Assembly (NCBI GenBank): GCA_036874045.1
Contig: CM072339.1
Span: forward strand, 7,261,501 to 7,325,500
Source: Cymodocea nodosa
Taxonomy: Eukaryota; Streptophyta; Magnoliopsida; Alismatales; Cymodoceaceae
Direction: 5' to 3'
Length of the DNA: 64,000 bases
Below the pieces are notes generated by a model that was given only the letters and a program-made list of their open reading frames with translations, was not told where the DNA came from and did not search any database. Position numbers and translations under genes: made by a program. Positions within the stretch are counted from its first letter, which is position 1, and each line of letters opens with the position of its first letter. This document shows positions 16,394 to 47,807 of this stretch, in pieces.

Positions 16394-16405
16394 GCTCTTA
16401 TACAA
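16394..16405 (-). other. Primer binding site of element C (degenerate)
   Basis: On the minus strand TTGTATAAGAGC starts 2 bp after the LTR end CCTACA. It differs at two positions from TGGTATCAGAGC, the initiator Met-tRNA site. Confidence 0.75.
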
Positions 16406-16407
16406 CT

Positions 16408-26499: not shown

Positions 26500-27132
26500 A
26501 TGGTCTCCAAGTTCTACAAAGGTTGTGATAGAGGAAAAGGCAAAGGTAGAGGAGATGGAAAAGGAAAAGAAATAGACAATGATGAAGTTCCACGAGCTTG
26601 GTTTAAGAAAATACTTCAAGTGGACAAAAGGTTAGCAAAAATATATAGTGAATATTTCTTTCCTGAAGGAATATTGAATGAAGTTAGACTAGAACTTCAT
26701 AATACTGATGAAAGTATAAAATACATGGGTATAAGAAGTAAATTTGATAGAGAATATAGAATGAATTGTGTCGAAATTACATTTTTGGAACAGTATGCAC
26801 AATATATGAAAAAAGGTGTAGGTTCATCAACTAGAATTCCTCAAACAGCCATAAACGGTACAAGATTACATGCATTTGAGGAAGAACATGAATTTGCTAT
26901 TCCTACTCCTTTGTATTCAAAAGGAAAACAAACAAATATTGTTGTGGATAAAAGAAAAGTTGAAGGACTTCAAAAGGCAGTAGCAATAGAAAGTGCCATA
27001 GAAGAATTAAACCAGAAAACTTTTATGGAACAAATTTAGAAGAAAACATCAATACTTGAAGAAGAGAAACTGACTTGTTATAGAAGATGAAAAATCAGGA
27101 AAATTATATCTAAGGAAACAAAGTTTGCTGGT
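26500..27132 (+). pseudogene. ORF2 of Sirevirus X, 5' part
   Basis: MVSKFYKGCDRGKGKGRGDG, then DNDEVPRAWFKKILQVDKRL, KIYSEYFFPEGILNEVRLEL and a conserved HAFEEEHEFAIPTPLYSKG. Close relative of ORF2 in element C (10202-12426). A TAG at 27037 and S2 at 27133 break it; it resumes after 45125. Basic at the start and helical later, with no membrane segment. Function unknown. Confidence 0.8.
27128..27132. repeat. Target site duplication GCTGG of S2 (left)
   Basis: GCTGG before TGTTCAGG; repeated at 45125-45129 after ...CTATACA, and a third time as GCTAG at 45258-45262 inside the 133-bp duplication. The C copy of ORF2 shows the undisturbed sequence (CTGGAAAAGAAAA). Confidence 0.9.
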
Positions 27133-28323
27133 GTTCAGGGTTTACATGTTATGAAATTAACACACAACCGAGTTTTAATATTTATAACCGCAAGCGCACA
27201 GAGTCAATTAGAGAAAGCATGAAGAATGGGTCGAATCCACAAGGACCAGCAATTAAACATAAAATTCACTAGAGCTTATAGATATGCCTTGTGTAAATGC
27301 ATTCTCATCACATGTTTGCCTTAACAATCATGTGTATGTTAGAAATGACTTCATATAGAGTTGAATTAGTAATGAGAAACCTCATTCATGTCCCCCTCTA
27401 TCCATTAGTTAAGAGAAAGCAACACACAATAATTATTACACTACAAAAATAGAAAAGAAAATTACACTACATCAAACTACTAATTCTACTACAAAACTAG
27501 CATACATGGACTTATAACCATACATCTAACTCCATGTGTGCTCTAATCTATTAAGTACAAGCTATATATAATCAAAACCAAGTAAATCAAGAGGTTAGAG
27601 TTAAGTAAAAAATGTCTAAACTATTTTAGAGTTAGAGGAACAAACATTGAGAAGAATCCATACAAAGAAACATAAAATCAAACACATAGAAGGTGAAAAC
27701 TCAAACTAAGCTTAGAATTGAAATACATTGAAACTAACACAAGAATTCAACAATATACTAAGGGGAAATCATGTGGACCACACAAACAACAACAATTAAC
27801 AAACATATACTACTGAAATTTACATTACAACTCCATCTCCACTCAAATGCCTACTCTTAATATCACACCTCCAATGGCTTGAGCACAAGGGACGTCACCT
27901 CCTTGCTTCACACCACTTGAGATGGCTACCTTCTCTAGCAATTCTCCATGTCCAAAGCTGCTTGTTCCCTCCATGGATTGGAGGTCCAACACCGGAGGGA
28001 ATACAACAACGTGTAGAACAATTGAAGAGCTCTCTTGGATGCAAGTTTCCACACCTTCAAGTGTATCTCCAATGGAGCTTCATCCACGGATTCAGCACCA
28101 ACAAGAGGGGATTTGCAACAACAATTCACCTCCTCAAGATGTAGAATGCCAGATGAAGTATTGGAGAAGACAAGAAGAAGAAGAAGAACCTTACCTTCAA
28201 GAGAAGTTTGGAGGAGAAGACACTGAGAGGGGAGCTCTTCCTTCACCTTGCTTGGAGCACCAAGGGGAATTCCAAAAATTGGAGTTGGGAGAGGGGAGAA
28301 AACTTGTGGGATACAAGGCCTAT
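27133..28323 (-). mobile_element. S2: probable solo LTR, left part
   Basis: With 44541-45124 this gives a 1.78-kb TG...CA unit between GCTGG duplications. ATAACCGCAAGCGCAC (27185-27200) and GGGTCGAATCCACAA (27228-27242) resemble S1, so both seem to be minus-oriented LTRs of related gypsy elements. 27840-28320 is GC-richer and holds overlapping open frames on both strands of up to 137 codons, with low-complexity translation and no motif; I do not call genes there. Split at 28323 by the Athila-like element. Confidence 0.65.
28319..28323. repeat. Target site duplication CCTAT of the Athila-like element (left)
   Basis: CCTAT at 28319-28323 and at 44536-44540, immediately outside both LTR ends. 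A perfect 5-bp match. Confidence 0.9.
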
Positions 28324-30112
28324 TATTTAGAATGAAAAAGTGCATAATATTAATGGTTAAATGATGGTTAATTGCATAATATTTAGCTTATCATATGAAA
28401 ATTAAGGCATTATGTTATAATTGCACTGTTATATGCTTTAATGAAGGATTCTGCATAATTTTAGGGAATTAATGTTAATTTAGTACATTTCTGAACTATC
28501 AGTAAGTTGCTGGTTTTTAATTCTTTAGTATCTGAATTTTCTGTTATTTCGGAGAGTTATGTTTAATGTACCGGACAGTTATGTCTTTAAGAATATTTTA
28601 TTATTTCCTAAAGTACACGTGTTGAATTTAAATGCTTTATTATGTCACGTGAGATGCACATGTTGAACTCGTTGAGTTAGCATAACTGTATGTGTTGAGT
28701 TACATGAATATACACTAAGGTAACGCGTTATGTTAGCAGCTTATTTCTTTATTGCACGTGTTTTATAGTTAAATCAACAAAGTAAGTCCATTGAGTTATC
28801 TGTAACTCCACAGACCATTTATTTTCTAATATGCCACTATAGCGGTTGTAGAAACAGGACATTCGAAGGAAAACCACGATTGCACATATCACGTAGGAAT
28901 TCACTTATGGAAGGAAGAAGAAATCACCATTGTTGATATGAACGAAGGAAATCCAACCGATCATCTAAGCAGAAGTAGTTACTACTAAGAAATATAAAAG
29001 AAAAGGAGAAAAGACGAGGCAGTGTGTGTGTGTAGAGGTGGAGGACCACGCTAACTGCAGGCAACATCGAAAGTTCCTTGAAGCTCCACACCACCATCAC
29101 CAACATCACCATAATCACCAACCATCGAAGGTCTGTGATTTCCTGATGTCGGGTCGATTCTGAGCCAAACACGGTGCCTGACAACCATTGTGAGGAGGAT
29201 CATGTCACGGGAAGGGAAGCCATTTTCACCAAGCATCGACTCATATCTTAGGAGATTGTAAAGCTTCTAGCCTTGGTTTCGGGTTGATGCCAGTATGTTG
29301 AAGAGGAGATCATCTTGCAATTCTGGACTCGCGATTCTATAGGGAGAGGAGGCAGGATTGTAAGTGGTTAAGTTTTCAGTGGTGTAATCGTGTCGCATGT
29401 AGTGACAGAAGTTTTTACTATCGATAGAGATTACTTTTACATTTCACCTTTCACCCATTTTCATGACCATATCAAAACAAAAATACCAAAAACAGTAAAT
29501 TATCTGTGTTTACATTTCGTATTTAAGTGTTGTATTGTTTGTTTTGTACCATGATTAATGTTAGCATTGTAAATGTTTCATGTTTGTTTGATTTAGAAAA
29601 TAGAAAATAGTTTTACAGTTTACTGAAATTGATTCGTTATTGATACTTAAAGATTTTAATGGTTACTGTTTGAAATATCTGAATGTTAGTGTTGCTGAAT
29701 GATAAATCTAATATTAACTAGCATTAAAGAGCTTAATTGATGTTATTTACAATCTATGGGACCGCCCAATGGTTGGCCGAATTCCTTTGTAAATAGAAGC
29801 ATTAAATTGGAAAGATAGCTTCATTGAGTTAATTCAATTCCACGAGGTTAGTCCGTTGAGTTAGCTATAACTCAACAGAGTGCTTACTGAATATATAAAT
29901 TTCATTATTAAAAATGGAACAATACACAATTCTTACTCAATTCTCTAAGGGATCGACTTGTACTTGCACACAAATACAATATACACTATGCACTTGTAGT
30001 TAAAATACAAATTGGAATAAATATCTAATTTGTATGAAAGGTTGTTTGCTTACTTCTAAAAAGGAATTACTGATATAAGCAAGTTTAAGATTTAACTTTT
30101 CACAATGAAACA
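28324..30112 (+). repeat. 5' LTR of the Athila-like element
   Basis: 1,789 bp. Starts TATTTAGAATG (TG expected, as in the 3' copy) and ends ATGAAACA. Contains GAGTTA/TAACTC palindromes (for example 29852-29879), ACGTG boxes and a GC-richer middle (28860-29400). Near its end is the GGGATCGACTTGTACTTGCAC zone typical of such LTRs. Short open frames inside on either strand look like chance. Confidence 0.93.
28993..29000 (+). promoter_or_regulatory. Putative TATA box of the Athila-like LTR
   Basis: TATAAAAG, conserved at 43400-43407 in the 3' LTR, followed by a purine-rich stretch and the GC-richer part of the LTR. Likely promoter of the genomic RNA; position only. Confidence 0.5.
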
Positions 30113-30119
30113 AGTTTTC

Positions 30120-30137
30120 TAGCGTCATTGTCGGGGA
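30120..30137 (+). other. Primer binding site (Asp-tRNA type)
   Basis: TAGCGTCATTGTCGGGGA, 7 bp after the LTR end and preceded by AGTTTTC. It matches the plant Athila site TGGCGCCGTTGTCGGGGA except for a few C-to-T/G-to-A changes. Complementary to the 3' end of Asp-tRNA. Confidence 0.88.
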
Positions 30138-31139
30138 ATTGAGTAGCTAAGTAACTATAAGTGCTGTTTTGTTTTAATAGCAAGAGGAGTATTGTGTGTT
30201 TTCTTCTATAATTGAGAATATGGCATATGCTTATGCTCAAAAATTTTTGAAACCTGTAGTTAGCATATGTGAATTCTATAATTTGGAAGGTCACAACATC
30301 TCTGATTGTTTGAAACTGAGACGGTTGCAGATGGTTAGATCACATGAACAACAGATGAATTATATTTAATATAATAGAGTTGAGTATGAGAATCCTATAG
30401 TTTACCTAACTAATGGTCAACTTAGAATGTGTAGTTGAGAGACAATGAAGTTTGGGATAGGTATGACAAACTGGAGCGTAGTTTAGAACAAAACATGGAC
30501 AAATTAGAACAATTTGTGTCAGCAACAAGAAGTCAACCAATTAAACTATAAACAAGCATATTCAAAACCTAAAATTGATATTATATACGAAACTGAAAAA
30601 ACTATAATGAAAATTAATCAAAAATTGAATGTAATGAGATTAGATGATCTGGAAAGAAAACTAAAAGCATTAGATGAGTTTACAATGAAATTACAAGTTA
30701 TGCAATAGGAAAACACAAATGAAAACTTTAATGTTATAGATTTGCATAATTTGCAAGACATACAAACAACAAAGAATACTAATGCAATAGAATTTAAAGA
30801 ATGCAATTTAAAACTAAAAATAGTTGAAGATCATAATCACTAAAATGAAATACAAGAACATCAAGAAAGTAACGAAAATCTGGAAGATGTATGTATAACA
30901 CAAAGATCTGGAACTGATATACCATCAAGAATTCAAAAAGAAAGTAATATGAAGGTGGATAAGAACACAAATCAAAATGATAATGAAAATATAATATCTG
31001 AAAATATAGAAATCAATGAAGAAAAGTCTGAATAAAAAAATGAGACTAAAAATGATTAAACAAATCAAATGAAAGAAAAAGAATCTTTTAAATCACAATC
31101 ATTAGCACCTATCCTAGAAGATTACAACAAACATTTCCT
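30138..31139 (+). pseudogene. 5' gag remnant: zinc-knuckle part and linker
   Basis: From the ATG at 30221: MAYAYAQKFLKP, then CEFYNLEGHNISDC (a knuckle with the second Cys replaced), YENPIVYLTNGQLRM, and a coiled-coil-like, Lys/Glu/Asn-rich linker shared with the minus-strand copy (4829-5035). No capsid core is seen here; that part is at 38310-39585. Several stops, and a frameshift near 31110. I take it as the nucleocapsid end of Gag leading into protease. Confidence 0.65.
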
Positions 31140-31990
31140 AAAAATAAGAAAAAATTAGAGAAATTTTTGAAAAAGTACAAGTTAACATTCCTTTGTTAGA
31201 CTTATTGCAGAAAATGCCATATTGTGCTAAATTTCTTAAGGATTGGTGTACTAAGAAAAGAGAGTGAAAAGTTTTAAGGAAAGTCTTTTTAGCTGAGCAA
31301 AGTAGTTCCCTATTTTTGCCACAAATTCCTAAAAAGTTATCTAATCCTGGAATTTTTGTTATATCATGCACCATAGGAAATACCATTCTAGAAAGAACCT
31401 TAATAGACCTAGGTGCAGGTATAAATGTTATGCCAAGTGATATATTTGCATCTTTAGGATTAGATGGCTTAATCCCTACTAGGACTATTATTCAATTAGC
31501 TGACAGAAGTATAAGATACCCTAGAGGAAAAATAGAGGATGTCTTAATTAAAATCAAAAACTTCATATATCCTATTGATATTGTAATTTTAGATTCCTAA
31601 CAAATTAAGCATAAAAATAGTGATACATCTTTAATTTTGGGAAGACCATTTTTAGCAACATCAGGGGCTATTATAAATTGTAAAACTGGAATTATGAAGT
31701 TAGCATATGGTAATGAGGATACTCAATTAAACATTTTCAAACCAGAAAAGTTTGAGGAGTTAGAAATGTCTTTACATACTATAGACTTTTTAGAGGATGA
31801 AGGAGATATGTTAGATGATGTGATTCAAGAAGAATTAAATAGGCAACTTAATTCTAAGATTTTAGAAGAAAGTGAAAGCATAAATGTAGAAGAAGATTAA
31901 GAAGAAATTAATTTAGAAAATGATGATGTTCAATTAGGAGCTCTAGTTTCTGATGGGCAACAATTAGAATTAAAACCTTTACCTCTTGAA
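31140..31990 (+). pseudogene. Retropepsin-like protease (Athila-like)
   Basis: LIDLGAGINVMPSDIFASLG (31403-31462) holds the active-site Asp. QLADRSIRYPRGKIEDV and LGRPFLATSGAIINCKTG follow. A TAA at 31600 replaces the first Gln of the DSQQIKH seen in the other copy. Upstream, a LLQKMPYCAKFLKDW-like stretch of the Gag-Pol linker is frameshifted and carries stops. It would process the polyprotein; not functional as read. Confidence 0.88.
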
Positions 31991-31999
31991 TTAACCTAT

Positions 32000-33118
32000 A
32001 TATTTTTGGAAGAAAAATGAACATGTCCAATCATTATTGCTTCAGATTTAAAAGAGGATCAAATTACTAAATTAAAAGATGTAGTAAAAACTTATAAAGA
32101 AGCAATAGGATGGATTATCACTAATATAAAAGGGTTAAGTGCAACTTTATGCTGTCATCACATATATTTAGAAGAGAATGCTAAACCTGTTAGAATTCCT
32201 AAGAGGAGATTAAATCCAAACCTTAAAGAAGTAGTTAGGAAAGAAATAGTGAAATGGTTAGATAATGACATAATTTATCTGATTTCTGATAGCTCATGGG
32301 TTAGTCCAATCCATGTAGTTCCCAAGAAATCAGGATTAAGAGTTATTAGGAATGAAAGTCAGGACTTGATACCTACTAGAATTCAATCAGGTTGGAGAGT
32401 GTGCATAGACTATAGAAAGTTGAATGTTGTGACTAGGAAAGATCATTTTCCCTTACCTTTTATAGATCAAATGCTAGAGAAATTAGCAGGGCAAGAATAT
32501 TTTTGTTTCTTAGACGGGTATTCAGGATATAACCAAGTTCTAGTAGCATTAGAGGATCAAGAGAAAACAACTTTCACCTATCCTAATGGAACTTATGCTT
32601 TTAAGAGAATGTCATTCAGATTATGCAATGCACTAGCCACCTTTCAAATGTGTATGTAGGGCATATTCACTAGAATGACTGAAGATTTTTTAGAAATATT
32701 TATGGATGATTTTACTATTTATGGAACTTTATATGAAGTGTGTTTAAACAATTTAGACCAAGTATTAAAACACTGTGTGGAAAAAAATCTGGTTCTAAAT
32801 TGGGAAAAATGTCACTTCATGGTTAATCAAGGAATAGTCTTGGGACATGTTGTTTCAAAGAAGGGGTTGGAAGTTGATAAAGCTAAAATAGAAGTAATTT
32901 CTAATCTACCAGAACCTAAATTAGTAAAAGATATTAGATCATTTCTAGGACATGCTGGATTTTATAGAAGATTTATTAAAGATTTTAGCAAAATAGCTAG
33001 ACCTTTAACTAATCTATTAAAAGATGTCCCATTCAACTTTGATAAAAATTGCAAAGAAGCATTTTTCAAGCTTAAAACTAGCTTAATTTCAACTCCTATG
33101 ATTCAAGTACCTAATTAG
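32000..33118 (+). pseudogene. Reverse transcriptase (Athila-like)
   Basis: SSWVSPIHVVPKKSG, WRVCIDYRKLNVVTRKDHFP, YFCFLDGYSGYNQV (catalytic Asp), TFTYPNGTYAFKRM and IFMDDFTIYG (catalytic MDD, about 32699-32728), then FLGHAGFYRRFIKDFSKIAR. Same frame as protease and RNase H. The TAG at 32657 stands for Gln. The N-terminal part 32000-32248 is recognisable but holds stops. Confidence 0.92.
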
Positions 33119-33562
33119 AGCCATCCATTTGAATTAATGTGTGATGCATCTGATTTTGCTGTAAGAGTAGTGTTGGGACAAAAGATAGAAAAATCTCTTA
33201 GAGTGATTCATTATGTAAGCAAAACCTTAAATGATGCTCAAGTTAATTACACAACTGAAAAAAAGCTGTTAGCTATTGTGTTTGCCTTAGAAAAGTTTAG
33301 ATCATATCTAATTGGAGCTAAAGTGATAGTATACACAGATCATTCAACTTTAAAATACCTAATAGCAAAGAAAGAGACTAAACTTATATTGATCCGATGG
33401 ATATTATTATTACAAGAATTTGATCTAGAAATTAAAGATAAAAAAGGTTGTGAGAATGTAGTAGCAGATCATTTATCAAGATTACAAATAGAAAAATCAA
33501 ATATGGAAATTAAGGATAATTTTCCTAATGAACAATTAATGACCATCAACACAATGCTTTGA
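33119..33562 (+). pseudogene. RNase H (Athila-like)
   Basis: [38 protein letters not shown] (one codon shorter than in the minus-strand copy) and [15 protein letters not shown], ending with [16 protein letters not shown]. The three expected acidic positions are visible. A TAG at 33116, where Trp is expected, separates it from RT. 33563-33720 is the tether to integrase. Confidence 0.9.
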
Positions 33563-33719
33563 TATGTAGACATAGTTAATTACTTAGTTATTGGTTTAAC
33601 ACCTAAGGATTGGAATGGACAGTATAAGAAATTGTTCTTTTCAAGAGTGAGATATTACTATTGGGAAGACTCATACTTATTTAAGAAATGTCCTGATCTG
33701 GTTTTAAGGAGGTTTGTTC

Positions 33720-34790
33720 TAGAAACTGAATATTAGAGCATATTGTCTTTCTGTCATAACCAAGCATGTGGAGGACATTTTGGTTTAGGGAAAATTGCTG
33801 CCAAAATTCTGCAATGTGGATTTTATTGGCCAACACTATTCAAAGATGCTCATAAATATTGCTTAAGTTTTTAAGATGTTAACAAATAGGAAGAATATCA
33901 AAGAGGAATATGCTGCCTCTTAATCCTATTATTGAGGTTGAAATCTTTGATGTGTGGGGAATAGATTTTATGGGTCCATTTCCTATGTCTAATCAATTTA
34001 ATTATATATTGTTGGGGGTGGATTATGTATCTAAATGGATAGAAGCTATTCATACAAAAACTAATGACAACAAAGTGGTAATACATTTTATAAGAACCAA
34101 TATAATTGATAGATTTAGAATACCTAAAACTATTATCAGTGATAGAGAAACTCATTTCTGTAATAGAAGTTTTGAAGCCTTAATGAAGAAATATAGAGTA
34201 AACCACAAAATTGCAACATCATATCATCCGCAAACAAGTGGACAAGTAGAAAGTGCAAACAAACAAATTAAGTTAATCTTAGAAAAAGTTGTAAATCCTA
34301 CTAGAATAGATTGGGCTAATAGATTGATGGATGCACTTTGGGCTTATAGAACTGCTTACAAGACAAGCTTAGGTATGTCACCTTTTTGGCTAGTATATGG
34401 AAAAAGTTGTCATTTACTAGCTAAAATTGAACATAAAGCTTATTGGGCATTAAAAACTCTGAACACTAATTTAAATCAAGTTGTTGAAAATAGGAAAATA
34501 CAATTGATTGAATTAGAAGAATTTAGGAATGAAGCTTATTCGAAAACTGTAAGAGAAAAAGAGAAAATAAAGTTCTGGTATGATAGGAAAATTATTCCAA
34601 AAACCTTTGAAATAAGACAAGAAGTATACCTTTACATGACTAAACTCCATAACCGTCCAGGAAAATTAAGATCTAGATGGGCAAGACCTTACATAGTTTG
34701 AAATATTTATCCCTATTTTGGAGATACCAAAAAGATCTTTTGGAATTATAGAAGAAGTAAGAGTAGAGGACTACTCGAGCTTTACTTAGT
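33720..34790 (+). pseudogene. Integrase (Athila-like)
   Basis: Zinc-binding part with CHNQACGGHFG and CGFYWPTLF, a frameshift near 33900, then the core. The acids are in [20 protein letters not shown] and [10 protein letters not shown]. The C-terminal region has [30 protein letters not shown] and [12 protein letters not shown], diagnostic of Athila integrases. A stop follows at 34699 and conserved sequence continues to about 34790. All three catalytic acids remain. Confidence 0.92.
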
Positions 34791-34799
34791 AAGAAAGTT

Positions 34800-35460
34800 T
34801 CTAAGTATATATTAAAAAAAAAAAAAACTTATTTAAAACATAGTCACAGTTCAACCAAAAGAAATTATCGATTTTACCGAAACATATTTTAAAAGGAAAA
34901 AAATCATTGCAGTTCAACTGATAGGATCCATCGGTTTGATCGAAACACAAAAACATAAAAAATTCTATATATTATATTTAGTTAAGTGTTGGTGTTACCG
35001 AAGTATAGTATTAGTTCAACTGACAGAAAAAAAAGAGAGAAAATATTTAATTTCGGTTCAACTAAGGAATATATCGGTTTGACCGAAATTCTAAAATGTT
35101 GAAAAAAAAAAAATTTTAAGAATCAGTTAGACCAGAAATTCTTAGGTCTTGATCGAGGTAAAAAGTATTATTATATGTATTTTTATTAGATATAACTTTA
35201 TGGAAAGTCCATTGAGTTACACTTAACTCAATGAACTTACCCCATTGAGTTAACTATAACTCAATGGAGTACCATAGTTAAGTCCACAGACTTAGTCCGT
35301 GGAGTTAACTGTAATTCCATGGATGAGAGAGCGAGAGTTTGTGTGGGAAATGATCCGATTACCTGCCTAAACTTATGGTTTGGGGGAATTATCCATAGAA
35401 TTATTTAAAACTTAGACTAGTAGAGATCAGAGCGATTTCATTCCGTTGCGTAACTCCACG
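34800..35460 (+). repeat. Spacer with TCGGTT/ACCGA array and GAGTTA palindromes
   Basis: No gene. 34840-35150 has repeats of about 70-90 bp containing GGTTCAAC and TCGGTTTGACCGA-like inverted repeats. 35210-35233, 35242-35267 and about 35296-35323 are hairpins; the second has 11-bp perfect arms CCATTGAGTTA / TAACTCAATGG around ACTA. Homologous to 195-921 in the left copy. Confidence 0.75.
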
Positions 35461-37269
35461 ATGAGAAAGATGACACCTGAGTTCTGGGAGGACGCAATTG
35501 ACACGTCAAAATTCCTTAAAGACTTAGAGGATTGGCACACAAGGTAGAAGATTAGAAATACAACGAGAGAAAAAGAACTACAAAAGGTAGAATCTGAACT
35601 TTTCAACTGGAGAAGAGTTTTAGTAGATTTGGATATACAAATACCTCAGATTATGGAAACAAGAATAAAGGTTGCTACAAAAATTGTTGTAAGCAAAGAG
35701 AGAAAAATCAGGCCAAACAACGAAGTTACCCTAGAATTAATCCAACGTAAGTCTCAACTATGGTTCAAAAGATGCATAGGTAGATGAGCTCAATGGGTGA
35801 TCTAGGAGCAAGAAAGGAAAGAAAATGAAGAACAGGCCACTAAAGAAGAACAAGAGGAACCGATTGCTGAAAGACCTATCCTTGAGGAACAACAGCCAGG
35901 ACCTTCAGTTCAACCAACAGAGCCATTACCACGAGTAGCATTTGCTTGGCTGAGAATTGAAGAAGAAGATAAAGAGTTTGCTAGCTTGGTCAAAATAGCA
36001 AGAAACCAAGGAGATGATGAAGGAATAGCTATAGTCGAGGCACATATTTTGTATGATGCCATAAAGAAAAGAAGGGTTGAAGAAAAGTTGAGGGCCTAGT
36101 ACAAAATTAAAGTTGAATAGCATTAGGATGCAACTAAATCAAGTGCTGCAAGAGAAGCTGAAGTTGGTCCTTTGAGATCAGCAATTACAGAAAAAGTTAA
36201 ACAGGAAGAGCTAGTACCTGTGGCTCAAAGGCCTGTAGAGCCTATTTTTGTGGATTTAATCTCAAATGAGGAAGAGGAAGACCAGGCACAATTAATTAGA
36301 AAAAGGAAAGGAAAAGAGATAGTGCCTGAATATCAAGAGGAGATTAAATCTGAAAGACTAATGTTAGTAGGGCTTGTAGAGCCAAATTTTGTAAACCTGC
36401 TATCCGATTCTGAGGATGAGCAGGAGCAGCAACAGCAAGAGCAAAGAAGAGAAGGAAAACAAGTTGAAATTAATCTACAGCCTGTACAAATAGAAGAAAT
36501 AGAAATTAGGGCAGAAGCTAATTTGCTTAGAACTCCATCCCAATCTGCCACAGAATCAGAAAGAACAGTGACAATGCAGATTGGTAGTCAGGAGGAAGAA
36601 GAAAAAGAAGAAACTGAACAAGAAGTTGAACAAGTACATATGGAAAGAGATGACTCGACAGATTCCACTGAAGAGCAAAGAACTCTTTAGCAAATTTTGG
36701 AAGGAATTCAAGACAGAGTGGAGAGTTCTGTCGGCTCACCACCATAGATAGAAGTAGAAGCAAAAATTCAAGAATCCCTAGAGCATTTTCAGTCTTTCCA
36801 AGTTCAGCATATGGAAGAGGAAGTTCAAGAACAAACCTCTCTAGAGCAACAAATTCATATTACTGACCTTGTTGAAGCAACAGTTTTAAATGAAGTACAC
36901 TTTTGGAGTTAGGAAGCTTATAATAAATACCAAGAGATTAGGGGTTATGATATCATATACAGTAGACCAGTAAATTGGGACAAAATATAAGAAATTAAAG
37001 ATTTATTTGAATTCCATGGTCTACTACAATTTATTTCTCAAGAGAGAGGGCATGTAGTATATGAGAATTTAGTGCCCTACTTTTATGCAAATTTGAGAGA
37101 AGGAGAAAGAGGATTAATTTCCAACGTGGAGAAAGTTGATGTACAAATAACACTAGAGCTTCTCCACAATATTTTCAAACTGAGAAATGAAGGAATTGAA
37201 ATTCTGGAAGAAACAATTGCAGTGGAAAGGGCTGAACAGGAAGTAGATGAACTTAGGAAGAGAGATTAA
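35461..37269 (+). pseudogene. ORF2 of the Athila-like element (3' extra ORF)
   Basis: About 600 codons in one frame with several stops. It starts MRKMTPEFWEDAIDT. Next comes a helical segment REKELQKVESELFNWRRVLV resembling ORF2 of Sirevirus A (REIELQKIESEI). A long acidic Glu/Gln-rich middle with two LISNEEEE / LLSDSEDE repeats follows. The end, EIKDLFEFHGLLQFIS and ENLVPYFYANLREGERG, aligns with EIRDLFEFQGLIQFLP and AAFYNNL of the Sirevirus ORFs. The more C-terminal part of that domain is missing. No signal peptide or membrane helix. Function unknown. Confidence 0.72.
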
Positions 37270-38309
37270 ATTCTATTGTTCGTCTACTTGTACTTATATT
37301 TGTATGAAAAATATCTGACTGAATGTAATGTAAAACTATCCATATTAATGAATGTATGTTTTTCAGATGTATTTTTCATTCGTGTTTGAGAATGATATAA
37401 TTGATGAACTATCTTGAGTATTATATAAATGTTTGAACAAGTTGCAAAATTATTTAAAAGATTTACAAATTTTATGAATGATAGGATTAAATGCATGATA
37501 ATTGGTTAATGCCTAAAAATATCTGCATGTTGAAAAATGTAAATTCTGCATAACATGAAATGAACTGCAAGTTAAATATACATATCATGTTCAGATTTAA
37601 ATGAGTTTTAATTAAAACACTACATTAATGACATGTATTTAACTTTAATTAAGTTGACAAAATGTAGGAGAAAAAAAATATAGAAGTTAATACGAGGAGT
37701 AAGTTTTAGAAAATTTGCTAAGTATTAACTCAATGGAGTAAGTCCGTTGATTTAACCTTAACTCTACGAGGTCAATAATATAATATAAGGTCACTCTGTT
37801 GAGTTAAATGTAACTCAATGAAGTTAGTTCGTGGAGTTAGCAAAGAGTAACCGAAGCTCGTCCGTTGAGTTAACTGTAACTCAACGAAGTTAGTCCGTGG
37901 ATTAAGCTGAACGGTTATTCTTTCAGCCACGAACAAAACTTCGTGGATTTAGCAATCACTAAAAATTTGAAACTAGAAGTGGCACACGTATCCATAAAAA
38001 TAGGAACCACACTGCATGTTGCAAGACACGTTCTTGCAACGAGATTCATCTACTTTATGGACGTGCATTATAAATATAGAACAGAATGTTATTTACAAGT
38101 TACCAGCACTTGAGGAAGGAAATTCGTTAGGGAACTGGAAGGGGAAACAGCTAATTCAACTTCATCCGTCAACAACTATTTACTAAATATAAAGCTTGTA
38201 ATTAATCTTCTGCTAACTTATTTTATGTTAAGAGTTTATGAGCTCATGGATTCGTTCTCCTAGTACTAAATGATTAGTAAGAACACCTACATAGGATTAT
38301 TCAACATAG
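37270..38309 (+). other. 1-kb spacer before gag, with palindromes and a TATA-like box
   Basis: No gene. 37735-37930 holds GAGTTA/TAACTC palindromes; 37863-37886 has 10-bp arms CGTTGAGTTA / TAACTCAACG. TATAAATA at 38069-38076, just after an ACGTG box, lies about 240 bp before gag. An internal promoter for gag and the F-box ORF is possible but unproven. Confidence 0.5.
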
Positions 38310-39585
38310 AGGCATACTGAAATATTTTCTGAATTGGGCTTTAACGAAATCCTTAGGGGTGTAGCTAACCTTTCTTTAAAAGAGAATGAAGATATGGCTG
38401 CTCCAATAGAGAAACCATTAGGGGAAATTCTATATCCTGAATTAGTTGATGAACCTTCATGTATTCGATTGCCAAACTTTGAGGGAGATAGGTTTGAATT
38501 GAAATCTAATTATATTAGTCAATTGCCACATTTTCATGGATTAGAAAGAGAGGATGCCTATTATTTCCTTAGAGAATTTAACGAAGTTTGTCAAATGATG
38601 AAAATGCCGAATATGAGTATAGATGCTATTAAACTTAGATATATCCTGTTTGCTTTAAAAGACAACTAAGAGATTGTTATATACTCTATCGCTTGATTCA
38701 ATTTCCACATGGACTAAATTTTGCTCTATTTTTCTGGAAAAATATTATCCAACACATCAAACGATTAAAAAGAAAAAGAAAATATTAATGTGTAGCCAAA
38801 AATAGGGAGAATCATTCTAGAAATATTTTAAAAAATTTAAAGATTTACTGACTCAATGTCCACATCATGTAATGAGTAAAGCACAATTGATAGGTATAAT
38901 TTATGAAGGCATGGATGTTTCAATGAAATCTTTATTAGAATCTACTTGTTAGAATGGATTTTTAAAACTGTGTAGTGAAGAAGCATGGACGTACTTAGAA
39001 AACTTTGCCAAAAGAATGGCATAGTGGGAAAACTCAGCTGATGCTATTATAAATAAAAGAATATTGCCAAGGGGAATGCATGAAATAGATTCAAGCACTA
39101 TGCTTGAAGTTAAGTTAACTGAATTAACAAAGAAAATAGAAGAGTTATCATTAAATCAAATACTAGTAGAAAAGAGTGCAAACGTTAATGACTTAGATAT
39201 TATTTATGCTAGAAACTAGAAAGATAACTTTGGAAATTCTTATAACCCTAATTGGAGAAATCATCTGAATTTATCTTGGAGAAACAACAATTTTCAGGGA
39301 GGAGAAAATATAAATGACAAAAATATAAGTTATGAAGCATTAATTGAACAAGGATCTAGAATAGAGAAGTTGGAAAAGATAATTCAACAATTAAACAATC
39401 GTCTAGATCTTGTATTTGGAAATGTTACAATTCAAAATCAAAATATAAATAGAAATATACCCCCTAGATAGAAGGAATCAATGGAAGTTAGACCTACTAG
39501 AGGATTACCAATGCAAGCAGTACCTAACCCTATCAACAAAACTGTTAAAGAAATTGATACCTCCTCTAGGAGGGTAGTTGAATGA
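38310..39585 (+). pseudogene. gag (capsid region), displaced to the 3' half
   Basis: Athila-type Gag: IRLPNFEGDRFELKSNYISQ, LPHFHGLEREDAYYFLREF, AIKLRYILFALKD, then after a frameshift near 38670 STWTKFCSIFLEKYYP, LLTQCPHHVMSKAQLIG, YEGMDVSMKSLL, PNWRNHLNLSW and a coiled-coil-like SRIEKLEKIIQQLNNRL. It ends with TGA at 39583-39585. In typical Athila elements this stands between the 5' LTR and protease. No zinc knuckle here. At least six TAG stops, at sites where Gln or Trp is likely. No ATG opens the frame. Confidence 0.85.
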
Positions 39586-39779
39586 AATAGTATAATTGAA
39601 GTAAATATGTATAATATAGTAGTAGAAAAATATAAAAAATGTAAGTTTAATTATAGTTAGTAGTATCGTAGAGTTATTACTTAACTCAATGAACTTAGTC
39701 CGTTGAGTTATGACCTAACTCCACGAGGGTATGAAGTAGCTATGTTAATTTTTGTTTATGTCATACAAAATCACAACAG
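39586..39779 (+). promoter_or_regulatory. F-box leader with palindrome and possible splice acceptor
   Basis: Contains a CCGTTGAGTTA / TAACTCCACG palindrome (about 39700-39725), then a T-rich run and CACAACAG directly before the F-box ATG. The second copy keeps the same palindrome and the same TCACAACAG-ATGGAATTG junction (63000-63015). A 3' splice site would let the ORF be expressed from spliced RNA; this is inference. Confidence 0.4.
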
Positions 39780-40868
39780 ATGGAATTGATGAAATTACCA
39801 CTAGATGCACTAAGGGAAGTATTGAGTAACTTGTTAGCTAGAGATCTATGCTGGGTGTGTTGTGTATCAAAGGAAATTAAAGAATCTGTTAGAGAAAAAT
39901 ATTTTCATGGACTACAAGCTGCAAAGATGACTAAGATTAGAGATGGATTTTTATGGAAGGCATTTAATCGTAGTTCAATCAGCTATGAATATTTGAATAT
40001 GGAAGAAACTACTGGAATTCCACCAAATACATTAGAAGGAATAGATCATATTATGGGGATGGATGAAGGATTAATTATTTACAAAACCAAACCAAGGTAT
40101 GCAATTCTATTGCCTAATATTTTGACTAGAAATCCTATCACAAGAGAAGAATGGAATATAGGAAAGCCTAATAGATATGAGGTACCAATTGAAAATTGTG
40201 GGTCAGCTTTAATATTTTTTGATAAAAATTCGACCGTTCTTGAAAAATTATATTATTGGAGACCAACTGGAAATTGGGATGAAGATTTATGCTTTAGTGT
40301 ATATAATTTTCTAAAAAGATCTTGGACTAAAAATACTATGATATATCTAGGACAGAAAGCATTAATTAACAACATACATGTCATACTTGATGGATATATA
40401 TATCTAGTCATAGATATATCAGTTGCATTTAGATCTGATTTATACATTGTAAGCATAGACAGTTATGATGATTTTATAGAAATATTACCTATACTGAGTG
40501 ATATAGCTAAACCACCATCTGTAGAATACGATAAAATTCAATTAGGAATGTGGTATAATGAATATGATAATCCTACTTTATGTTTGATAAGATGGTGGGA
40601 TGAATTGAGGAAATTTCAAATATGGATTATAAAAGACTTAAATGAATGGAAGTGGGAAGAGGAATATATTGAAATAAATGTAGAAATAGAAACACCTACA
40701 TTATCTTGGAATAGAAGAGGATCCCTTTCTGCATTTCATTTCATTAATGGAAACACACTTATATTTAGTATTGATAATATACTGCAAGTTTACAAATTAA
40801 AAAGGAAAATGGACTGCATTGAAACAAAATTAATAGCAAGAAGAATTATGCCTAAAAAGTTTTCTTAG
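39780..40868 (+). CDS. F-box protein carried by the Athila-like element
   Basis: 362 codons, ATG to TAG, no interruption. Residues about 4-45 (LPLDALREVLSNLLARDLC, CCVSKEIKESVREKYF) fit an F-box, the domain that binds SKP1 in SCF ubiquitin ligases. The rest resembles a plant F-box-associated domain: GLIIYKTKPRYAILLPNIL, RNPITREEWNIG, a VYNFLKRSW strand, HVILDGYIYLV, QLGMWYNEYDNPTLCLI, then LKRKMDCIETKLIARR. It would select a substrate for ubiquitination. It sits between a dead gag and the 3' LTR, inside the TSDs, so it is element cargo. A broken copy is at 63010. At least 12 Trp codons are intact, whereas neighbours lost Trp to stops. The F-box call is by motif; the substrate is unknown. Confidence 0.78.
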   Translation: MELMKLPLDALREVLSNLLARDLCWVCCVSKEIKESVREKYFHGLQAAKMTKIRDGFLWKAFNRSSISYEYLNMEETTGIPPNTLEGIDHIMGMDEGLIIYKTKPRYAILLPNILTRNPITREEWNIGKPNRYEVPIENCGSALIFFDKNSTVLEKLYYWRPTGNWDEDLCFSVYNFLKRSWTKNTMIYLGQKALINNIHVILDGYIYLVIDISVAFRSDLYIVSIDSYDDFIEILPILSDIAKPPSVEYDKIQLGMWYNEYDNPTLCLIRWWDELRKFQIWIIKDLNEWKWEEEYIEINVEIETPTLSWNRRGSLSAFHFINGNTLIFSIDNILQVYKLKRKMDCIETKLIARRIMPKKFS

Positions 40869-41749
40869 ATTGACACGTTTATTCTATTTGTTACTACTTT
40901 TCAGTCATGTTCTTAAACTGTGATTTTGTGCATTTAATGTGTGTGTAGTCTGCATTTATTTTTAGAAAAAAAAAAGAGAAAAAGAAGAGAAAAATTTTTA
41001 GTTTTAGTTTTATTCTATAAGAAGAAAAAAACAAAATATCAATCTAGTTTGTTGGTATCTATCTTGGGAAACCAACTAGCTTGCTTGTGAGCCACCAAAG
41101 GCATAGGAGCCTGGGTTCCACACAAGACACTGATTAACAAGTTATGTTTTGTTATGTTGTTATATATTCTGCTTTTATTTGTGAATGAAAAGTTTTTCAG
41201 AATAAAAAATTGGAAGATATTGAAGGAGATACAAAAGAACAAGGTATGTAATTAATTACTTATCCTGAATTTACATTTAAACTCAGTTCATGGTGTTATT
41301 CATTAACTCAATAAATTAAGTTCGTTGAGTTAGGTGTTAAGTCAACGAAACAATATTCATACTTGCTACAATTACTGTATTTACCAAAAAATCTTTTACA
41401 TTGATAATGCAAAATGTAGGTATGAGGGGGAGGTAATTAAAGTAACAACTATGTAATTTTGTTAATTAGAAGAATTAAAATGGTATTGCAAAAGTTCTGT
41501 GGAAATTGAAAAATATTGATGAAGTTGCTATAACTATCCGATAATTGAAATTGTAAAATTTTTAAGAACTGTAACTGTTGGAATGTTATAGTTATAATCT
41601 TATATAAGATGCTACAAATTTTACTACTCATACAAATCTAGATATTGTATCGTATGTTTTTGTTGAAATTTATGAGTTTAATATTTTCACGATTTTAAAA
41701 AGAAATCAGAATGTTTAAATAAAACTCAGTAAATTATCTGAAATCCTAA
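40869..41749 (+). other. Non-coding stretch after the F-box ORF
   Basis: No gene supported. AT-rich with an A-rich run (40967-40990), a GTTCGTTGAGTTA / TTAAGTCAACGAA palindrome (about 41321-41350) and a GGGGGAGG tract at 41427. Short frames on the minus strand look random. Confidence 0.55.
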
Positions 41750-42610
41750 AAGAGCTGAAATGTTGATTTTTGGATTAAATGAAATACATATGATCAATAA
41801 TACATTTAATATGATTGATTAAACTTGTAGAATGATTTATGTGTAGATCTTATTAAACTACAGAAAAAGTATGAGCTTATTGATATGGATTCATATTTTT
41901 AGTAAAAAAAAAAAAATGGAAGTAGAACTATATGAGATTTGTGTTTTATTGCATCTGTATTAATGAAATACGTATATATACTGTGTTGAAAAGAAAAAAA
42001 GAGAAAAACTTTGAGAGTTTATTGACTTGTTTGATCACGAGCCTTTTGTACTTGAGCAGATAGGTATGTAAGGATTGTTGACCTGAAAAATGACTCTTTA
42101 AATCTGGCAACCTAAAATCTTGATCAGATCTAGGATTGTTGACTGAAAGCTTAATACATGGGTACACTAGAAAGCTCTTGTATGATTCAAGCTTGTCAAA
42201 TTAACTTTTAAAGTACAAATATGCATATACTGTTCGGAAAAGATACAAGTGTTTTGTGAAATACACATATCTTTTGAATCGAATATATTTTCTGTTATCT
42301 AAAATTGCTGAAGTATGAATCTAGAATAGACTTTTGAAGTTGTTTATTTGAGATACAATTCTTTATTCTACTTGTCTTAATCATATTGAATTGGATTGTG
42401 TTTTGATTCGTATGTTGTTGAAATTTATTTTGGAAATCATATTGGAAAATTTAGGATGACAGATGTTGAAAAGAAAAAATGATAATATAATTAACACCTA
42501 TGTGATGCTGATATATTTTGTATGTAATTTACATATGTTCTAAATATATTTGCAGGTTGAAGAGGAGAAAATAATGTTAAAATAGATTACTGAAAAATAC
42601 AGAATCTATA
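41750..42610 (+). repeat. Non-coding block shared with Sireviruses C and X
   Basis: Collinear with the reverse complement of about 13760-12900 in C, and with X (5045-5374 plus 25702-26030). Landmarks are ACATATGATCA, GATTGATTAAACTTGTAGAAT, AGATTTGTGTTTTATTGC, GATCACGAGCC and GTTTATTTGAGATACA. In Sireviruses it precedes ORF2; here it precedes the polypurine tract. Function unknown. Confidence 0.85.
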
Positions 42611-42716
42611 TAGTAATCTAATTTATTATTCTGAAGAACGAAATGAAGAATTAAATCTAGCACTTTAGAAAGACCAACTAGTTAGATCTTAGTTTGCTAA
42701 GGGACTAGCAAAATTT

Positions 42717-42730
42717 AAGTATGGGGGAAG
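42717..42730 (+). other. Polypurine tract of the Athila-like element
   Basis: AAGTATGGGGGAAG directly before the 3' LTR start TGTTTAGAATG; the usual primer of second-strand cDNA. Confidence 0.88.
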
Positions 42731-44535
42731 TGTTTAGAATGAAAAAGTGCATAATATTAACGGTTAAATGATGGTTAATTGCATAATATTTAGCTTATCA
42801 TATAAAAATTAAGCCATTATGTTATAATTGCACTGTTATATGCTTTAATGAAGGAATCTGCATAATTTTAGGGAATTAATGTTAATTTAGTACATTTCTG
42901 AACTGTTGGTAAGTTGCTGGTTTTTAATTCTTTAGTATCTGAATTTTTTGTTATTTCAGAGAGTTATGTTTAATGTACTAGACAGTTTTGTCTTTAAGAA
43001 TATTTTATTATTTCCTGAAGTACACGTGTTGAATTTAAATGCTTTATTATGTCACGTGAGATGCACATGTTGAACTTGTTGAGTTAGCATAAATGTTTGC
43101 ATTGAGTTACATGAATACACACTAAGGTAACACATTATGTTAGTAGCTTATTTCTTTATTGCACGTGTTTTATAGTTAAATCAATGAAGTAAGTCCGTTG
43201 AGTTATCTATAACTCCACAGACCATTTATTTTCTAATATGCTACTGTAGCAGTTGCAGAAACAGGACATTCGAAGGAAAACCACGATTACACGTATCACG
43301 CAGGAATTCGCTCGTGGAAGGAAGAAGAAATCACCATCGTTGATATGAATGAAGGAAATCCAACCGATCATCTAAGCAGAAGTAGTTACTACTAAGAAAT
43401 ATAAAAGAAAAGGAGAAAAGATGAGGTAGTGTGTGTGTGTAGAGGTGGAGGACCGCGCTAACTACAAGCAGCGTTAGAAGTTCCCTGAAGCTCCACACCA
43501 CCATCACCAACATCACCATAATCACCAACCATCGGAGGTTTGTGAGGATACTTTCTTGATGTTGGGTCGATTCTGAGCCAAACACGGTGCTTGACAACCA
43601 CTGTGAGGAGTAATCGCATCACGGGAAGGGAAGCCATTTTCACCAAGCATCGACTCATATCTCAGGAGATTGTAAAGCTTCTAACCTTGATTTCGAGTTG
43701 ATGCCAGTATGTTGAAGAGGAGATCATCTTGCAATTTTGGACTCGCGATTCTATAGGGAGAGGAGGCAGGATTGTAAGTGGTTAAGTTTTCAGTGGTGTA
43801 ATCGCATCGCATATAATGACGGAAGTTTTTACTGTCGATAGAGATTACTTTTACATTTCACCTTTCACCCATTTTCATGACCATATCAAAACAAAAATAC
43901 CAAAAACAATAAATTATCTATGTTTACATTTCGTATTTAAGTGTTGTATTGTTTTTTTTGTACCATGATTAATTTTAGCATTGTTAGTATTGTAAATGTT
44001 TCATGTTTGTTTGATTCAGAAAATAGAAAATAGTTTTACAATTTACTAAAATTGATTCGTTCCTGATACTTAAAGATTTTAATGGTTACTATTTGAAATA
44101 TCTGAATGTTAGTGTTGCTGAATGATAAATCTAATATTAACTAGCATTAAAGAGCTTAATTGATGTTATTTACAATCTATGGAACTGCCCAATGGTTGGC
44201 CAAATTCCTCTGTAAATAGCAGCATTAAACTAGAAAGATAGCTTCGTTGAGTTAATTCAATTCCACGAGGTTAGTCCGTTGAGTTAGCTATAACTCAACG
44301 GAGTGCTTACTGAATATATAAATTTCATTATTAAAAACGGAGTAGTACACAATTCTTACTCAATTCTCTGTGGGATCGACCTGTACTTGCACACAAATAC
44401 AATATACACTATGCACTTGTAGTTAAAATACAAATTGGAATAAATATCTAATTTGTGTGAAAGGTTGTTTGTTTACTTCTAAAAAGGAATTACTAATATA
44501 AGCAAGTTTAAGATATAACTTTTCACAACCAAAAA
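42731..44535 (+). repeat. 3' LTR of the Athila-like element
   Basis: 1,805 bp, TGTTTAGAATG...CACAACCAAAAA; the final CA is mutated, judging by the 5' LTR end ATGAAACA. Holds the cleanest palindrome of the family at 44275-44302: 12-bp perfect arms TCCGTTGAGTTA / TAACTCAACGGA around GCTA. The 5' copy (29852-29879) has one change in the right arm. TATA box at 43400-43407. Confidence 0.93.
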
Positions 44536-44540
44536 CCTAT

Positions 44541-45124: not shown

Positions 45125-45281
45125 GCTGGAAAAGAAAAACCAGATGAGAAAAATGTGACTAACATGTATTTTCTTGTATAAGTGCATATAACTTGAGTTT
45201 CAAGACATAGAATGCATAAATTATCATATAAAAATGTGTACAAATATCATCTATACAGCTAGAAAAGAAAAACCAGATGAG
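45016..45281. repeat. 133-bp tandem duplication across the S2/X boundary
   Basis: 45016-45148 and 45149-45281 are head-to-tail copies differing at a handful of positions. Each unit holds the last 109 bp of S2, the GCTGG (GCTAG in the second) target site and 24 bp in all of X ORF2. It arose after S2 inserted. Confidence 0.93.
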
Positions 45282-46577
45282 CTTTTATTTCCAAAGGACA
45301 ATGTATGTCTAGACATTGTTCCTTTTAATGCATCTGAAAAACTCATTAGTTCCGAGCATACTAAAATTGATAAAGATAATGAGACTTTATTTTCTCTTAC
45401 TAGAAAACTTGAAAAGAAATCCAAGTCAAACATAAGTTCAAGTTTTTCTATTAGTTCAAGCCCTGATGATGCAGCAATTGAACAATCAGAGCATCAGGCA
45501 ACTGACATAAAACAAGTTATTACGGATATAATTGAAAATGTTGAGGCAGTAACTAGTTCACAGGCTGAATTGTCTAGAGTAGCGAATATTGAAAAATTAA
45601 AACTCCAGAAGAGCTTAATGTCAATCAGCCTTCTTCAGAATCTATAGAACCAGAATCTGAGAATTCACAGCATGTATCAATGGAGATATCTGTTGAACAC
45701 AATGAACAATTATAGACAAATACACCGGTTGTAGAATTTGTAGAACAATTGACCATTCTATGGAGATTGAATAGATGAATGTTGAGCATATTGAAGATGT
45801 TCCTTACACTATTGAAGCTAGAGAATCAGGCTTACATACACAGCTTCATGAAAATATTTTCACAAAGGAACAACATGACATTCATTTTGAAGAAGAGGTT
45901 CCTAAAGATGAATTAAATTCTGAATCAAGGCTTCAGGTATCACTTTCTTTGTATAAAGTATTACACATTCAAGGTAATTCAATTCATTTTAGATCTGAGG
46001 AAGTATTGCAGAAACTCAATAATCTGATTACATGTCAGATTCTGCATGCTCGTCCAATAAATTTCAGAAATTTGATGGAAATAAGAGATCTATTTGAGTT
46101 TCAAGGCTTAATTCAATTCTTGCCGGTTGTAACAAAATGGAAACAATATAAAGAGCTCATTGCAGCCTTTTACAACAATTTGGTCAAGAATGACAATATA
46201 CTAACAACTCAAATAAATCAATAGGAGTTCACATTGTCTCCTGAATTAATTTTTGAAGTTTTAGGATTAAAAAATGAAGGTGTTGTTACAAATAGATTTG
46301 ACATGATTAGACAGCTGGAATGGGACATTCACTCGCTATCAAAGATTCCAGATGTATATAGTGAAATGAGGTTAATGGAAAATTTGAATGTAGAGGCAAG
46401 GTTTATTGCAAATATCCTGCATGCCAATTTATTTCAGAGAGTCAGACACAATATGGAAGTCAACAGAAGTTGTTTGTATGCAACTTATGGTCTGCTGAAT
46501 AGAATTCAAATCAATTGGTTTGATATTTTCATTTCTCAACTACAGCATATAAGTTCACAGTTATTTTTTGGTGATGC
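45258..46577 (+). pseudogene. ORF2 of Sirevirus X, 3' part
   Basis: Resumes ORF2 after S2: KEKPDELLFPKDNVCLDIVP, an acidic middle (SSSFSISSSPDDAAIEQSEH), a frameshift near 45610, then the folded region: ILHARPINFRNLMEIRDLFE, FQGLIQFLPVVTKWKQYKEL, IAAFYNNLVKNDNILTTQIN, a TAG at about 46222, LSPELIFEVLGLKNEGV and LHANLFQRVRHNMEVNRSCL. Gives the clearest view of this domain in the window. Cut at 46577 by the LTR of element A. Confidence 0.8.
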
Positions 46578-47807
46578 TATAGGATTGTTGTATCACAAGA
46601 GGGGGGTGAATTGTGTCTTTAGCAATTAAAATTACCAACAGATAAAACAAGAGCACAAAACACTTGTAAATAAAATTCTATTCTTTATAAACTTTAAAGA
46701 CAGAATTTACAATATCTTTTCAGCTCAATTCCCCTCTTGACGGTTTTGATACAGTAATGTCTGATATACAATTCAAATAGAAAATGAAGTCCTTATTCAA
46801 AACTAATTTAGAATTGTATAAAACCTAATCTTTTTGCACATAGCTCCTTTCCTTCTTCTTTTTTTCTCAGCTTCTATATCTCTTCTTCTCCAGTTGTTGA
46901 ATTTCCAGACTACTTGCGTTTGTAGCTCCTTTTCTGAAATTGCTTGGAATTTCGAACTTCTTCTAATGTTGGAGAATTTTTCTGAATATGAATATTCAAA
47001 CTTAACTTTTCAGTTAAGGATCAAAATTGAATATTTAGACTTGGTTTTTGAGATTGGGATCCTCTAATGTAATGTAGTTCGTACTCTCTATTAGTAGTTG
47101 AACTCTATCTTCATGTTCAGCATGTTGATCCACTTAATCCATAATCCACATACTAATTTTTTCTTTAATTCAAATTACTATCTTTTTGAATTTTCCACTT
47201 TCTCCACTATCATTTTGAATTTCCACAATCTCCACTCGTATATTTTGAATTTACTTTATCTTCTTGGAGTTTTGTGGAATATCTTCTAAGTCTTCATTTT
47301 AGTCGAACACTTATTCTTTAAGTCCTGTAAAAACTCAAATACTTATCTGTAACTCTTCGAGTTTTTGCACCTACAAAACACGTGACTGAACATAGCAAAC
47401 TTATCTATTCGTTAGTCATTTTATAAAACTCGAATAGTTATCTATCCATGCGTATAAAAACTCGAACAATTATCTAACTCTTCGATTTTCATTACCGAAC
47501 GCACATGGAAAACACGTGACAACTTAAAACATTAAAAACACACGTGCAGATAACTTAACTATACGAGTTTTTTTTAATATAATTCTTCGACTAAATCAAA
47601 ATGTTAACTATCTGAAAGTTTAACTGTGAAATGCTAACTATCCAAAAACTTTAACTATTCGAAAACTGTAACTATCCGAATTTTTAAATGAAACTTTCCG
47701 ATAACTTGTCAACATTTAATTACATGACTATTATACTTAGAAAATATTATTTAGACTTATTTAAAAACTTTAATAAAGTGTTCATCATCAAAACAAAATT
47801 CCTAACA
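46578..47807 (-). repeat. 3' LTR of element A
   Basis: TATAGGATTG...ATTCCTAACA on the plus strand, with CACAAGAGGGGGGTGAATTG near the start, as in C. Minus orientation, 1,230 bp. 47340-47700 has AACTNTTCGA/TAGTTA palindrome halves and ACACGTG boxes. It cuts X ORF2 at GATGC (46573-46577). The matching 5' LTR was lost. Confidence 0.9.

Follow-up and report, generated by a model that had tools for sequence, protein, structure and literature searches.

How did an F-box gene come to lie, with its reading frame intact, inside a plant LTR retrotransposon, and what might it do for the element that carries it? The questions are raised by positions 39780-40868 (plus strand) of a 64,000-nucleotide stretch of the Cymodocea nodosa genome (C7:7261501-7325500; hereafter, the window), which an initial annotation had described as an intact F-box gene. 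This description was borne out, in that the ORF runs uninterrupted for 362 codons, its translation contains no stop, and residues 4-42 of the predicted product match the Pfam F-box profile (PF00646) at an E value of 3.6e-6 (27.1 bits; cut-off, 20.5), that is, within the first 45 residues, where such a match had been sought as a preset test. The same profile was matched by all eight intact members of the family that we aligned, with a best E value of 4e-11. The C-terminal part of these proteins has no clear profile; FBA_1 was matched weakly by three of the eight members (best E value, 0.017), and the zero matches that the FBA_1 profile returned over the genome are uninformative, because the controls were silent too. 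No env-type Pfam family occurred among the matches of the ORF and its eight aligned members. A search among 5.8 billion proteins, a set in which the coverage of plants is uncertain, yielded no homologue of the 362-residue product at an E value of 1e-3. No solved structure was matched by this sequence and one was matched weakly by the family profile (E value, 0.13), and a single-sequence structure model of the product was unusable (pLDDT 34.8).

The element around the ORF, as read from the sequence, extends from 28324 to 44535 and is bounded by a 5-bp target-site duplication, CCTAT, at 28319-28323 and 44536-44540. Its 5′ LTR (28324-30112) and its 3′ LTR (42731-44535, delimited by LTR identity and sequence reading) are 93.5% identical between 28326-30105 and 42733-44528. 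Their K2P divergence of 0.061 over 1789 aligned columns would place the insertion approximately 2.4 million years ago if a rate of 1.3e-8 is assumed, or 4.4 million years ago at 7e-9. All of the internal features lie on the plus strand. Next to the 5′ LTR is a primer-binding-site-like stretch, TAGCGTCATTGTCGGGGA (30120-30137), which may resemble a site of the tRNA-Asp type, and next to the 3′ LTR is a polypurine tract, GTATGGGGGAAG (42719-42730), both recognized by sequence reading. A short ORF piece at 30181-30366 has no Pfam match; its counterpart at the start of the 5′ coding part of another copy (c124) contains a C-x2-C-x4-H-x4-C pattern that we take to be a CCHC zinc knuckle, one C of which is changed in the present element. 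Unlike this 5′ coding part of c124, the 3′ gag pieces that we read by eye displayed no CCHC-like motif. The pol region follows, with an aspartic protease region (31268-31900, of which 31268-31600 has a weak Pfam match below the cut-off), a reverse transcriptase and RNase H, interrupted by stops (32021-33562; Pfam RVT_1 and RT_RNaseH) and an integrase core (33883-34701; Pfam rve, E value 5.6e-14). Further downstream are an ORF piece with weak similarity to Transposase_32 (36991-37269; E value 1.7e-4, below the cut-off) and a decayed gag, comprising the capsid part, at 38310-39585. The gag pieces of this element have no Pfam gag match of their own; they were identified by homology to other copies, including an ORF at L030:2141-2623 that matches Pfam Retrotrans_gag at an E value of 7.2e-20. 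The Rfam and tRNA scans of the 64-kb window returned nothing, and a search of 304 kb for an empty insertion site with the joined flanks matched just the flanks themselves and a short neighbouring repeat.

The LTR pair with its target-site duplication and the order of reverse transcriptase, RNase H and integrase, together with a weakly matched protease, are those of a Ty3/gypsy element. The gene order is LTR, PR-RT-RH-IN, gag, F-box, LTR, so that pol precedes gag. Thus, although the initial annotation had correctly placed the F-box gene between gag and the 3′ LTR of the element, its layout needs to be corrected to pol-gag-F-box. The order is the same in a full-length homologue to the left, in which an LTR near -42182, pol, a part homologous to the 35-37.8-kb region, two insertions, gag, F-box and an LTR near -3219 succeed each other (window coordinates, as for all positions outside the window). 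Two elements can be traced from end to end, and pol precedes gag in both; a third, which has an inner deletion (159688-170242), shows the same order. In Athila elements, gag is expected upstream of pol; because gag lies after the integrase both here and in the left-hand full-length copy, we name the element Athila-like and do not file it as Athila, its motifs and primer-binding site being those that we presume to resemble Athila.

Is the F-box gene a part of this retrotransposon family or a chance neighbour? A tblastn search of a 304-kb region around the window recovered eight F-box ORF copies. In the DNA matches, each of them is preceded by gag-end DNA and followed by an LTR start; a stretch that lies downstream of the ORF in the element (41345-41820; hereafter, stretch X, with no listed ORF of 70 or more residues) is absent in one of them. 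This identical placement in all eight copies ruled out a chance neighbour or a nested insertion, and further element copies with an F-box at this place had been named beforehand as a test. The second copy in the window, comprising a gag end from 62320 and an F-box sequence from 63010 to the end of the window at 64000 (plus strand), is real and has the same placement, as had been claimed, but its frame is broken by stops and a 1-base deletion; it is 89% identical in DNA, continues to 64097 and is followed by an LTR start beyond the window. Overall, the F-box ORF is open in three of the eight local copies and broken in five. Among 18 LTR starts in the 304 kb, eight follow an F-box copy, three belong to such elements as 5′ LTRs, and the remaining seven, with no F-box nearby, are lone LTRs or belong to cut-off stretches.

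Further copies of the F-box sequence were sought in the genome (374.6 Mb in 28 contigs). The F-box protein gave 6853 first-look candidates, and the best 113, all of which were scored, are 84-100% identical to it over nearly the whole length. No donor gene emerged among them; capture from a host F-box family, as the initial annotation had suggested, would be a possible origin. In this list, which favours copies in one frame, 19 matches are free of stops, 39780-40868 among them, and 94 contain a stop. From the other direction, 35 of the 36 places that we examined among the 150 best Pfam F-box matches in the genome belong to this retrotransposon family. For 15 of the 16 places fetched with 3 kb, the element surroundings were seen; all 20 of the 400-base slices from further places, which were spread by hand over the 150 best matches, were assigned by the F-box sequence alone. 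The exception, L005, has an F-box ORF that tblastn did not match to the 362-residue product at an E value of 1e-3. In these sets, L001-L008 are the eight best F-box profile matches in the genome, and L033-L040 were picked for long open frames and are unsuited to estimating rates of intactness. Although the family copies were located through the F-box itself, the eight local copies at the same place and the uniform genome matches strongly support the view that the gene is a part of the family. Because so many of the examined best F-box matches belong to it, counts of F-box genes for this plant may be inflated.

How might an ORF situated behind gag be expressed? A comparison of copies with and without gag suggests an answer. 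First, in four of the 16 loci fetched with 3 kb (L033, L034, L036 and L039), gag is lacking, and a stretch found ahead of gag elsewhere in the family, corresponding to 37238-38197 in this element (from 37710 in L034), directly abuts the bases just before the F-box ATG. Second, the left border of the missing segment in gag-bearing copies reads CAGACTG/GTATGTAATTAATC in two copies and TAGTCTG/GTATGT in a third, the donor ...CTG/GTATGT being present in three of the four copies that hold the site, and the right border consists of a T-rich tract and AG/AATC. The acceptor AG is retained in 14 of the 19 gag-bearing long loci (13 by a scripted pattern, which misses L003, where the sequence is ACAG/AATT) and reads AA in the other five. 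Third, the junction in the gag-less loci is CAGACTG/AATC. The difference between the two forms thus equals the exact loss of one GT-AG intron, which holds all of gag and is 1593 and 1599 bp long in the two copies measured. The exact junction was present in four of 23 long loci and in one of 20 slices, the state of a slice being scored from two to six bases, with nine slices uninformative (L059 reads AA, and L049, which reads CT, was left unscored). In the whole genome, a 22-base pattern that spans the junction of the two exons was counted 95 times, over 20 contigs, an absolute count without a denominator that includes L033, L034, L036, L039 and L053, and the reversed control pattern occurs 0 times. 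This suggests that spliced RNA was retrotransposed, leaving what would be a genomic trace of a spliced subgenomic RNA. Moreover, two gag-less copies whose surroundings were read both run into an LTR start, with reverse transcriptase sequence upstream in one and an LTR end and leader upstream in the other, so that they look like insertions from spliced RNA. The splicing footprint, the gag-less copies and the order of pol before gag are new relative to the first reading of this locus.

In the element in the window, the stretch at 37238-38197 has lost its donor site, and the intron-equivalent stretch that holds gag, at 38198-39768, is one of those whose acceptor reads AA. Because both donor and acceptor AG have been lost, its own F-box ORF may no longer be expressed by splicing.

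Did the gag-less form arise once or repeatedly? In a tree of 19 full F-box ORFs, a set that omits L002, L004, L007 and L008 with their partial F-box matches, the state changes between gag-bearing and gag-less at least three times. Placing the four long gag-less copies in one clade was rejected (p-AU 1.9e-5), whereas a clade of L033, L034 and L039 was not (p 0.17), which supports at least two separate origins. A tree that includes slices (27 rows) gave four state changes and a p-AU of 3.6e-5. The junction could also spread by template switches between a spliced and an unspliced RNA, and the scatter of the spliced copies over the tree could result partly from recombination. We also considered that the gag-less copies might be products of ordinary deletion, or that gag might have been inserted later, with borders that resemble splice sites by coincidence. 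Ragged deletions are indeed seen in other copies, such as at the pol/gag joint of the copy at 161743-167293, but a junction that is the same to the base in 95 places, with the GT and AG borders of a plant-type, T-rich intron, and the rejection of a single clade for the four long copies make this explanation scarcely credible.

We then asked whether the F-box ORF bears signs of selection, using stretch X of the same copies as a control. Over the same 15 pairs, the p-distance was 0.107 for the F-box ORF and 0.139 for X (Wilcoxon p 0.004, an optimistic value because the pairs share copies), and indels were approximately 12-fold rarer in the ORF (1.2 versus 14.2 per kb). The F-box distances are correlated with the distances in X (rho 0.76) and in gag (rho 0.71). 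Gag, which like X was measured in six copies rather than eight, is slightly more conserved than the F-box in distance (0.090 versus 0.101 over 15 pairs), with indels at 1.9 versus 1.5 per kb; because gag is constrained as well, the constraint is not special to the F-box. Variants shared by at least two copies favour the third codon position, with counts of 38/27/49 over the three positions in eight copies (p 0.04; 43/30/56 by a looser count) and 87/66/107 in 19 copies (p 0.008), and singletons are distributed evenly (63/54/67, p 0.49, in eight copies; 86/63/76, p 0.17, in 19 copies). Pairwise omega values ranged from 0.28 to 0.49 in 28 pairs, all of them below the means of 0.56-0.66 obtained from neutral simulations with the LTR spectrum; 11 of the 28 were lower than the lowest of 60 simulations, two of these within rounding, and approximately 17 fell inside the simulated range. 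The codon-position signals for constraint are modest. The sequence comparisons nevertheless show that the F-box ORF evolved under constraint in the past, and the picture that these patterns suggest is one of selection while the elements were spreading, followed by free decay.

Two other explanations bear on these observations. The gene might be a passenger that was captured once and has since been copied along without a role for the element. Plant LTR elements commonly capture genes, according to the part of the literature represented by PMC3726574, and the broken frames in five of the eight local copies would be expected of a passenger. Nevertheless, the rarity of indels and the lower divergence relative to X of the same copies, and a third-position bias that is confined to shared variants, argue against neutral carriage. 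The F-box is also open in three of the eight local copies, whereas a gag ORF of at least 200 residues upstream of it is found in none (longest, 175 residues), though at least three of these copies (the right-hand copy, p183 and p166) lack some of gag, and the longer ORFs upstream in p166 are those of pol, moved close by a deletion. We therefore regard a mere passenger as quite improbable. Alternatively, the gene might serve the host, with the elements being kept for its sake. The predominance of this family among the genome's best F-box matches that were examined would fit such a service, but single copies decay, as indicated by the internal stops in 94 of the 113 best matches and by the flat distribution of singletons across codon positions, and a service to the host is highly improbable.

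What, then, might the product do? SCF ubiquitin ligases dock F-box proteins through their F-box on SKP1, and the C-terminal part of the F-box protein chooses the target. We consider it likely that the F-box ORF serves the retrotransposon as an accessory gene, that this gene is expressed much as spliced genes of retroviruses are, and that its product is probably a substrate receptor of SCF. According to this model, the gene belongs to a high-copy Ty3/gypsy family of Athila-like type, which has the order given above and whose RNA would be spliced and, as the genomic footprints suggest, reverse-transcribed and reinserted in the spliced form. The unspliced RNA would yield Gag and the spliced RNA would yield the F-box protein, comparable to the mRNAs of retroviral env and accessory genes. 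By analogy with known families, the F-box would dock on SKP1 and the C-terminal part would recruit a target to the ligase. Degradation of this target would benefit the element; the target could be a host protein that acts in restriction or silencing, or Gag of the element itself. The proposal of an SCF substrate receptor, which the initial annotation had already made, thus agrees with the F-box profile match, and binding to SKP1 is a prediction. A silencing factor as the target, also raised there, is a guess, and control of Gag, which by our reading is the alternative product of one RNA, is a fair rival to it.

The protein might instead serve the element outside any SCF complex, for example by binding Gag or RNA and tuning packaging or copy number, with the F-box as a leftover. 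The expected pairing of Gag and F-box protein as alternative products of one RNA would suit a regulatory pair, and the C-terminal part, with its weak FBA_1 similarity in three of eight members, has no clear profile. The F-box is, however, well conserved, being matched in all eight members, and its first 45 codons have omega values of 0.11-0.33 in three pairs; we consider a role outside SCF unlikely. A bolder form of the preferred reading, that of an SCF receptor expressed as an accessory gene, would be that the family encodes its own receptor from a retrovirus-like spliced RNA and thereby eliminates a host factor of silencing or restriction, as a plant counterpart of the lentiviral accessory proteins, and that the spliced RNA represents a spreading, gag-less form of the element. 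We put this forward tentatively, as a rather unlikely possibility.

Several known systems resemble the one proposed here. In retroviruses, env and accessory genes such as Vif, Vpr and Vpx are expressed from spliced subgenomic RNA, and some of them redirect host ubiquitin ligases. The present family would share with them an accessory product from a spliced subgenomic RNA, as deduced from its DNA footprints, although Vif, Vpr and Vpx bind cullin ligases by means other than an F-box. The polerovirus protein P0 is an F-box protein that targets Argonaute; like the predicted product, it is an F-box protein of an RNA-using plant parasite, a likeness by description.

Among plant LTR retrotransposons, the term aORF-3S denotes extra ORFs in sense orientation that follow pol and precede the 3′ LTR (Vicient and Casacuberta 2020, PMC7264820). 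A sense ORF is found in this position both in the element in the window and in the left-hand full copy, and the env-like ORF of Bagy2, in the same review, has a spliced message. In contrast, the relevant passages of the review name env-like proteins, whereas the present ORF encodes an F-box protein, in an element whose gag is intronic and comes after pol. Gypsy elements of Phalaenopsis carry an ORF for an AlkB-like m6A demethylase, likewise a host-type regulatory domain in a Gypsy lineage that is proposed to counter host control, although domain and pathway differ from those of the F-box (PMC9289625). The main text of that report, a screen for extra LTR-element domains in 121 angiosperm genomes, contains the term 'F-box' 0 times, its supplementary chart apart. 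In Thlaspi arvense, the F-box family gene TaChr6G576 is listed as an LTR-retrotransposon duplicate, or 'LTR-gene'; it is one gene counted among host families, and the pertinent passages mention neither a family-wide element gene nor a splicing footprint (PMC8764390). Non-autonomous Athila families, as described in parts of PMC2410132, similarly include copies that lack some parts (e.g., pol) and retain ORFs under purifying selection, but these constrained ORFs are gag or env, in contrast to the F-box and the gag-less spliced copies described here. A short subgenomic RNA for gag has been described for Copia elements, in the portion of PMC8892269 concerned with it. Searches of open-licence PMC papers turned up no description of an LTR retrotransposon family in which an F-box gene is a standard component. 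Extra genes in plant LTR elements are known, and few of them give a clear biochemical lead. An F-box gene that belongs to a high-copy family, was constrained in the past and may be expressed from its own spliced RNA would make it possible to ask directly if, as in retroviruses, the ubiquitin system of the host is turned by plant retrotransposons on the factors that control them.

The surroundings of the element presented some further features. A 61-bp imperfect palindrome occurs at 39666-39726 and 41288-41348, in the LTRs, near 35221 and 37811, and at more places in the 304 kb, in non-coding parts of the element and around it; it may be a tiny foldback element or a shared signal. Capture by a DNA transposon marked by inverted repeats around the ORF was considered and rejected, as this 61-bp unit recurs elsewhere in the element and the region. 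In keeping with this recurrence, the 180-base spacer gave 98 matches at an E value of 1e-3 in the 304 kb, 90 of them shorter than 100 nt. Isolated pol pieces, unaccompanied by other element parts, were seen from 5036 down to -1468, in inverted orientation relative to the LTR of the left-hand element, and at 124891-120139. The latter had been a candidate for a related element lacking the F-box gene; because Copia LTR pieces border it on both sides, this pol-bearing stretch says nothing either way. Two more LTR pairs, 5373-25676 and 7977-18153, are 93.8% and 94.7% identical, respectively, and nested, with Copia-type RVT_2 inside. Between Copia reverse transcriptase and LTR, the DNA at 9705-13707 (minus strand) is similar to that at 25768-27105 and 45259-46578, and a similar series recurs at 112580-109569. 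Finally, an ORF with weak similarity to Transposase_32 at 46225-46629 (plus strand), outside the element, sits in the DNA of an older element that was seemingly split by the insertion of the element at 28324-44535.
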